Source of the DNA: Candidatus Tectomicrobia bacterium
Lineage (GTDB): Bacteria > UBA8248
Reading direction: 5' to 3'
Length of the DNA stretch: 64,000 bases
NCBI GenBank assembly: GCA_016192135.1
Contig: JACPUR010000004.1
Location: 1-64,000 of the forward strand
Both the position numbers and the translations under genes were made by a program. Below the pieces are notes generated by a model. It was given only the letters and a program-made list of their open reading frames with translations, had not been told where the DNA came from and made no database searches. Shown one piece after another: positions 22,572-26,548 of this stretch. Every line of letters begins with the position of its first letter. Within the stretch, counting starts at the first letter, position 1.

Positions 22572-23390
22572 ATGCGAAAGAAAGGGATGAGCAGGCGTGA
22601 CCTGCTTGGCATGGTCGGCCTAAGTGCGGTCAGCGCTGCGGCCGGGGCCGCGTCCCCGGCTTTCGCGCCGGGGACGCGGGCAGCCGCCGCCGAGGCGCCC
22701 AAAGTGCCCTGGCCCTATCAGCCGCTGGATCCAGAGGACGTGAGAAAGAGGGGGCACCAAGCCTTTTACGAGGGGGATTGCATGTATGGGGCTTTCGGCG
22801 CGGTGATCACCGCGCTCCGGGACAAGGTGGGGACCCCCTACGATGGTTTCCCTCTGGACATGATGAGGTACGGAAAAGGCGGGCTCAGCGGCTGGGGGAG
22901 CCTCTGCGGCGCCCTAAACGGAGCCAGCGCCGCCATCTGCTTGGTGGCGGGAGAGGATTTCACGAAGCTAGTGCCCGAGCTGGCGGGCTGGTACACGCAG
23001 GCGTCCCTCCCGAGCGAAGCGAGCAACAACTACGCGAATAACCATCAGTTCCGCGTGAAGAAATACAAGTCCGACAAGGTGCTGTCGGGCAGCGTCTCCG
23101 GCTCGACGCTCTGCCATGCTTCGGTCACCAACTGGTGCAAGGCCTCGGGCTATGCATCTGGATCCCCCGAGCGGGCCGAGCGCTGCGCCAGGCTCGCCGG
23201 AGACGTGGCGGCGCGGGCGGTCGAGCTCCTGAACGCGCACCACGCCCAACAATTCAAGGCCGCCTTCGTGACGCCCGCCGCGGTTCAGGTCTGCCAAGCC
23301 TGCCATTCCATGGGAACTGATTTCAAGAAAGGGCAATTCACGCAAGGAAGAGAAAACTGCATGCTGTGCCATAAGCCGCACAAGATCTAG
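22572..23390 (+). CDS. split-Soret-type dihaem cytochrome c, Tat-exported
   Basis: A 272-residue protein with a Tat signal (MSRRDLLGMVGLSAVSAA). The body has the cysteine pattern of the C_GCAxxG_C_C family (GDCMYGAFGA, LCGALNGASAAIC, LCHASVTNWC, ERCARLAG), and two C-terminal haem sites (CQACH, CMLCH). This matches split-Soret cytochrome c of sulfate reducers in architecture and size. Tat export suggests the protein folds, or acquires another cofactor, before secretion. GGGAGGTGA is upstream of ATG 22572. Its partner is unknown; no redox operon adjoins it directly. Confidence 0.8.
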   Translation: MRKKGMSRRDLLGMVGLSAVSAAAGAASPAFAPGTRAAAAEAPKVPWPYQPLDPEDVRKRGHQAFYEGDCMYGAFGAVITALRDKVGTPYDGFPLDMMRYGKGGLSGWGSLCGALNGASAAICLVAGEDFTKLVPELAGWYTQASLPSEASNNYANNHQFRVKKYKSDKVLSGSVSGSTLCHASVTNWCKASGYASGSPERAERCARLAGDVAARAVELLNAHHAQQFKAAFVTPAAVQVCQACHSMGTDFKKGQFTQGRENCMLCHKPHKI

Positions 23391-25835: not shown

Positions 25836-25990
25836 GGTTTCCCTCCGGCGACAGGATGGCTCGCCTGTCGGCCATTTTCCATGCGGCCGCTTGTCCTTCG
25901 CCTCCGCCTTTCGCCCGCGCGTTGCCGGATTCTCCGCGGGGTCATACCATCCGGACTGTCCGCCCGACATCCCGCTGCCCCGGAGGCCCC

Positions 25991-26548
25991 ATGACGGATA
26001 AGCCCTTGAATCCCTTCGAACAGAGCACCGCGCCCGGCGAGCGCATCACCGACAAGCCGGAGCTGCCGCGCCAGGGGTTCGCCATGCACCTCGAGGCCGA
26101 CACCGAAACCATCGAGGGGGAAACCCACCTCAAGCTTGGGAGATCCCGCGGCTTCGAGGTCTACTCCGACGAGCCGCCCCACATCGGCGGCACCAACAGG
26201 TTCGCCCCGCCGATGAGCTACCTCGCCATGGGCATCGGCTTCTGACTCCTCACCCAGGTGGCGCGGTACGCGTCCATGATGAAGCTCAAGGTCAGGAAGG
26301 CGAGCTGCCACGTCGAGTTCGACTACCTGCTCGCCGGCTCGGTGCTGAAGGGCACCGTGAAGACCACGTGGAAGGGGGTGACCACCCGGCTCGACATCGA
26401 CTCCGAGGAGCCCCCGGAGAAGATCGCCGCCCTGGTGCGGAACGCCAAGGGCGGCTGCTTCGCCGAGAACCTGGTGACGCAGCAGGTTTCGCTCCACGGC
26501 GCGGTCTTCCTGAACGGCCGGCCGGTGGAGATGGGCGAAGCACACTAA
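25991..26548 (+). CDS. OsmC-family protein with in-frame TGA at the conserved Cys, candidate selenoprotein
   Basis: A continuous frame of 185 codons interrupted only by TGA at 26243-26245. Before it: PPHIGGTNRFAPPMSYLAMG, ending GIGF; after it, in the same frame: LLTQVARYASMMKLKVRKA, then a second Cys in AKGGCFAENLV. OsmC relatives have GxxFC at this point, so TGA replaces the peroxidatic cysteine exactly, and both halves are conserved. A hairpin follows at a SECIS-like distance (26260-26274). OsmC proteins reduce organic hydroperoxides or act on other thiol-reactive substrates. GGAGG lies five bases before ATG 25991. I read the TGA as selenocysteine; a sequencing error (TGC/TGT) or pseudogene is possible but fits less well, since no other disruption is seen. 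Confidence 0.78.
26260..26274 (+). promoter_or_regulatory. candidate bacterial SECIS hairpin
   Basis: GGCGC (26260-26264), loop GGTAC, GCGTC (26270-26274) form a stem (one G-U pair) 14 bases after the TGA; the first loop base is 19 bases after it and is part of a GG. Bacterial SECIS elements lie directly downstream of UGA and have a G in the first loop positions. The hairpin is short, so this is supportive, not proof. Confidence 0.55.

Follow-up and report, generated by a model that had tools for sequence, protein, structure and literature searches.

Known OsmC-like selenoproteins and the gene under study

OsmC-like selenoproteins were first reported, as predictions, from the Sargasso Sea data: three sequences with a UxxT motif (PMC1088965). 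They were met again in the GOS survey (PMC2398784) and are included in a 2026 review (PMC13188914). The gene described here is located within a 64-kb stretch of 'Ca. Tectomicrobia' DNA, which was analysed as a whole and is referred to below as the window. Because of these earlier predictions it belongs to an already known kind, and the statement in the initial annotation that OsmC-like proteins had been listed among predicted bacterial selenoproteins is borne out by the three papers and by the NCBIfam entry NF041052. A literature search combining Tectomicrobia or Nitrospinota with selenoprotein or selenocysteine found no paper joining them in the collection searched.

The window gene shares with the Sargasso Sea and GOS proteins the OsmC superfamily (COG1765/PF02566), the UxxT motif and selenocysteine (Sec) with Cys homologues; it is by motif and family name that they are placed in one subfamily. 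NF041052, 'OsmC-related (seleno)protein' (OsmC_like_Se), reaches 162 bits on residues 34-176, its curated cut-off being 95, and has Sec at the same redox position. Nothing essential separates the window gene from this family, some Pseudomonadota members of which are Cys forms, although its phylum has several paralogues per genome. With the Cys-type OsmC/Ohr peroxidases (E. coli OsmC 1nye, Ohr 1n2f and OsmC-like 3cje) it has in common the fold, the first redox position and the second Cys, but it carries Sec85 in place of Cys, has no Glu about ten residues upstream and is only roughly 7-20% identical to them.

An in-frame TGA at the OsmC redox position

The gene is a single frame of 185 codons whose sole internal stop is the TGA at codon 85, with GIGF before it and LLTQ after it in the translation (Table 1). 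Close relatives start at the same position. The Pfam OsmC domain (PF02566) spans the TGA, covering residues 69-167 (E 1e-11, 45.6 bits with a gathering score of 27.5), in agreement with the initial annotation, which had seen both halves of a full-length OsmC protein in one frame with this TGA as the only interruption. The AlphaFold model has a pLDDT of 87, and its top PDB matches are OsmC/Ohr structures (E 1e-8). Searches of the window against Rfam gave no matches, and no tRNA was found in it. As a whole, the sequence data are best explained by the gene encoding a full-length OsmC-fold selenoprotein, which we consider very probable. As a selenoprotein call it is clean and can be checked; routine annotation may split or truncate genes of this sort.

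Table 1. Positions of the Sec-OsmC gene and its elements in the window
Feature	Position	Strand	Description and basis
Putative Sec-OsmC coding sequence	25991..26548	+	UGA decoded as Sec (residue 85), terminated by TAA at 26546-26548; reading frame, PF02566, NF041052
Shine-Dalgarno-like GGAGG	25982..25986	+	5' of ATG 25991; direct sequence reading
In-frame TGA, predicted Sec85	26243..26245	+	First redox Cys position of OsmC proteins, UxxT motif; TGA in homologues, Cys in non-Sec relatives
Codon of Cys156	26456..26458	+	Probable second (resolving) redox Cys, motif AKxGC[FY]AE; invariant in alignment, aligns with second Cys of Cys-type OsmC
Putative bSECIS hairpin inside coding region	26258..26277	+	Fold, synonymous freeze, covariation, published bSECIS model

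In an alignment of non-Sec relatives to a profile built from the Sec genes, almost all have Cys in the TGA column; only where a two-domain protein is aligned by its N-terminal domain is the residue Asp. The closest Cys forms are the C-terminal domains of two-domain OsmC proteins, which read F[C]YMTQLSRY there, and four proteins from Pseudomonadota that exceed the NF041052 cut-off. Three of these four read GIGF[C]LMTH where the window gene has GIGF[U]LLTQ. The initial annotation had placed the TGA at the redox Cys that follows GIGF in relatives, which is exactly where these Cys homologues align. In PDB 3cje a Cys is also aligned at the TGA position, and its KGCF matches the AKxGC[FY]AE motif. 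Both U85 and C156 are invariant in the alignment and align with the Cys pairs of Cys-type OsmC. It follows from the Cys alignments (non-Sec relatives and 3cje) that the OsmC redox pair is complete here, as Sec85 and Cys156.

Among 300 sampled genomes from the order of the betaproteobacterial carriers, 14 NF041052 matches above the cut-off (149 bits or more) all have the TGA, whereas the weaker matches listed (94.7 bits or less) all do without it. These all-TGA Burkholderiales matches suggested a Sec-only family, an idea dropped once the four Cys forms above the cut-off had been seen in other Pseudomonadota. What an OsmC enzyme gains from Sec could be tested with the natural GIGFU/GIGFC pair.

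When species genomes were scanned, the TGA stood at codon 85 in 80 out of 80 best loci. It is also present in 96 of 96 distinct homologous genes pooled from all loci, but this set was gathered by a motif needing a stop codon before LLTQ, so that 80/80 is the unbiased count. The 96 genes come from 'Ca. Tectomicrobia'/Nitrospinota-type and betaproteobacterial MAGs. One in-frame TGA is seen in all genus copies and in all near-full-length family copies; one copy at a contig edge has an extra TAG, and a few fragments stop short of the TGA site. Comparison with the congeners gave dN of 0.05-0.06 and dS of 0.32-0.33 upstream of the TGA and dN of 0.05-0.07 and dS of 0.45-0.49 downstream, values which indicate that selection is purifying on both sides.

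A hairpin downstream of the UGA and the selenocysteine machinery

The initial annotation noticed a hairpin at 26260-26274. A hairpin is indeed present there, with a somewhat larger best extent (Table 1). It consists of an 8-bp stem with a bulged U26273 and a GUA loop, the apical residues being G265-G266-U267, and its loop lies 20 nt from the UGA. The published constraints on a bSECIS are a loop of 3-9 nt, a G among the first two loop nucleotides, a spacing of 16-37 nt and an energy at or below -7.5 kcal/mol (PMC13188914). With a 3-nt loop, G first in the loop, 20-nt spacing and an energy of -9.5 to -10.2 kcal/mol, the window hairpin agrees with all four. The bulged U on the 3' side of the stem sets it apart from the model; many relatives' stems are unbulged. 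Its folding energy is not above chance when compared with shuffles of this GC-rich sequence (z = 0.10), and the case for the hairpin therefore rests on covariation and synonymous constraint.

The Arg codon at +7 is CGG in 96/96 genes, compared to 24% elsewhere in those genes, the third base of codon +6 is G in 96/96, and Tyr +8 is TAC in 95/96. Synonymous-codon bias has its maximum at codons +5 to +9 (0.8-2.05 bits) and is mostly near 0.2 bits outside them, with scattered values up to 0.85. The stem pair formed by base 2 of codon +6 and base 3 of codon +9 is C-G in 85 genes, G-C in eight, A-U in two and G-U in one, and is never broken. Over 30 distinct sequences, pairing in the helix is at 96% and the covariation score at 0.346, while shuffles gave 0.095 (none of 500 reached the observed score) and slid helices at most 0.096. 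The synonymous freeze and the stem covariation show, as far as comparative sequence data go, that the hairpin is under selection; such covariation constitutes unusually direct evidence for a bSECIS.

The initial annotation called for a search for selA, selB, tRNA-Sec and selD, and all of these except selD were located in the window's genome. tRNA-Sec scores 74.8 bits and has the anticodon UCA; SelA (540 bits) and SelB (389 bits) are encoded side by side, selA just upstream of selB. No selD was found in the window's assembly (3.9 Mb, 96.8% complete), the only substantial match being ThiL beside ThiE. The Sec-OsmC reading stands up to every computational test except the search for selD. Both congeners and 14 out of 18 family genomes have selD. 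In the congeners it is carried by a 4.2-kb stretch, 93% identical between them, whose counterpart in the window's assembly is limited to repeats. Since the whole stretch is absent, a missing or unbinned contig is likely and appears to be the simplest reading of the gap. tRNA-Sec is also present in 14/14 sampled genomes of other Sec-OsmC carriers.

Two observations concern SelD itself. SelD of the family is read through a TGA (e.g., in the congener locus G001:C62:962-1924). In several genomes of genus g2 (G003:C24, G006:C23, G007:C5, G008:C4 and others) an AIRS/SelD-like protein is encoded no more than about 350 bases from one Sec-OsmC paralogue; it scores about 90-95 bits to TIGR00476, below the cut-off.

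An OsmC pseudogene with a nonsense mutation, or a sequencing error, would be compatible with the lack of selD in the assembly and with the fact that the frame stops at 26245 unless Sec is decoded. This explanation was rejected and is given a negligible probability, because orthologues in independent assemblies keep the TGA (all 96 distinct homologues have it) and dN/dS is low downstream of it, as expected under purifying selection; the covariation of the hairpin also speaks against it. The retention of the TGA in independently assembled orthologues excludes, in effect, the read error for which the initial annotation had proposed a read-level check. It is also very improbable that UGA is decoded otherwise, by near-cognate readthrough or in a reassigned code (e.g., as Trp or Gly). 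Nothing speaks directly for such decoding, though DNA by itself leaves some room for readthrough. tRNA-Sec, SelA and SelB are present, and relatives have Cys at the site, not Trp or Gly. When the window was scanned for long, GC3-rich frames continuing through TGA, a single convincing case emerged, in which the presence of one protein on both sides is the analyst's judgement; with only one such TGA in 64 kb, a reassigned code was rejected. Selenocysteine therefore remains the preferred reading, and the candidate selenoprotein proposed initially gains support from the Cys homologues, which have Cys at the TGA, and from SelB and tRNA-Sec of the genome. Judged by its relatives, UGA for Sec at the OsmC active site is a real, well supported case in a family that is already catalogued.

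Possible function, paralogues and distribution

Presumably, SelB with Sec-tRNA(UCA) binds the hairpin that closely follows the UGA, so that Sec is inserted at residue 85 instead of a stop; the conserved machinery, the hairpin and its covariation point to this mechanism. Sec85, in the central helix, would stand in for the attacking (peroxidatic) Cys of OsmC proteins, with Cys156 as the probable resolving residue. The cycle would most likely pass from a selenenic acid to a Sec-Cys selenylsulfide, to be re-reduced by a thiol reductant. By analogy with OsmC/Ohr, an organic (lipid-type) hydroperoxide may be taken as the default substrate.

In Ohr the active-site Glu sits about ten residues before the peroxidatic Cys. 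This residue is Glu51 in the X. fastidiosa protein (PMC5962072). A check of the corresponding positions found no Ohr-type Glu about ten residues before Sec85, M75 being at -10 and S76 at -9, and the substrate may for this reason be a different electrophile or a disulfide. The protein could then be a real selenoprotein with a role other than hydroperoxide reduction, i.e., a Sec-based reductase, isomerase or binder of another electrophile, with several specialised paralogues. This alternative bears solely on function and leaves Sec decoding untouched; we regard it as possible, though less likely than not. Besides the absent Glu, it is favoured by the occurrence of up to 11 paralogues per genome, which suggests diversified substrates, and by the catabolic look of the neighbouring genes. 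On the other hand, the fold and both redox residues match those of OsmC/Ohr peroxidases, and the gene context is kept within the genus only and therefore says little on function. Reduction of an organic hydroperoxide stays the default assumption.

The flanking genes code for a metallo-beta-lactamase fold protein, an amidohydrolase, a TPP enzyme, BKACE and TRAP/TAXI transport. They are kept on both sides in both congeners as far as the contigs reach, and are not kept in betaproteobacterial carriers. The genetic context, considered unusual in the initial annotation, is thus ordinary for the genus. Elsewhere in the window, 22572-23390 (+) codes for a TAT-type protein resembling split-Soret cytochrome c; it scores 183.8 bits to NF047622, below the cut-off of 400, and has a weak match to C-GCAxxG-C-C.

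Sec-OsmC was found in 18 out of 18 species genomes of the phylum, a sample representing one family and six genera, with 1 to 11 copies per genome. This phylum-wide presence and multi-copy expansion is the less expected part of the results: every sampled species of an uncultured phylum has OsmC-like selenoproteins, as a multi-copy family, and many betaproteobacterial MAGs share them. In the tree, three members of the genus and ten copies from betaproteobacterial MAGs form one clade (support 0.987), and such a mixed clade suggests horizontal transfer. We tentatively speculate, at somewhat less than even chances, that Sec-OsmC has been amplified into a phylum-wide set (1 to 11 copies, always with Sec and in one case as a two-domain, two-Sec fusion frame), perhaps acts on a substrate other than organic hydroperoxides, and has been exchanged with Betaproteobacteria.

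Several further arrangements were observed. Some betaproteobacterial MAGs have two Sec-OsmC genes on one short contig (e.g., L098, L101 and L104). At G015:C120:2968-4071 (minus strand) two Sec-OsmC domains share one frame with no stop between them, possibly forming a two-domain, two-Sec protein. The window's genome also contains a second kind of OsmC gene (contig C14:10521-10991) with an in-frame TGA at residue 67, in the context AVAG-U-LTGNMG. It is distant from the window gene, scores below every NCBIfam cut-off and may represent an uncatalogued Sec-OsmC subfamily.
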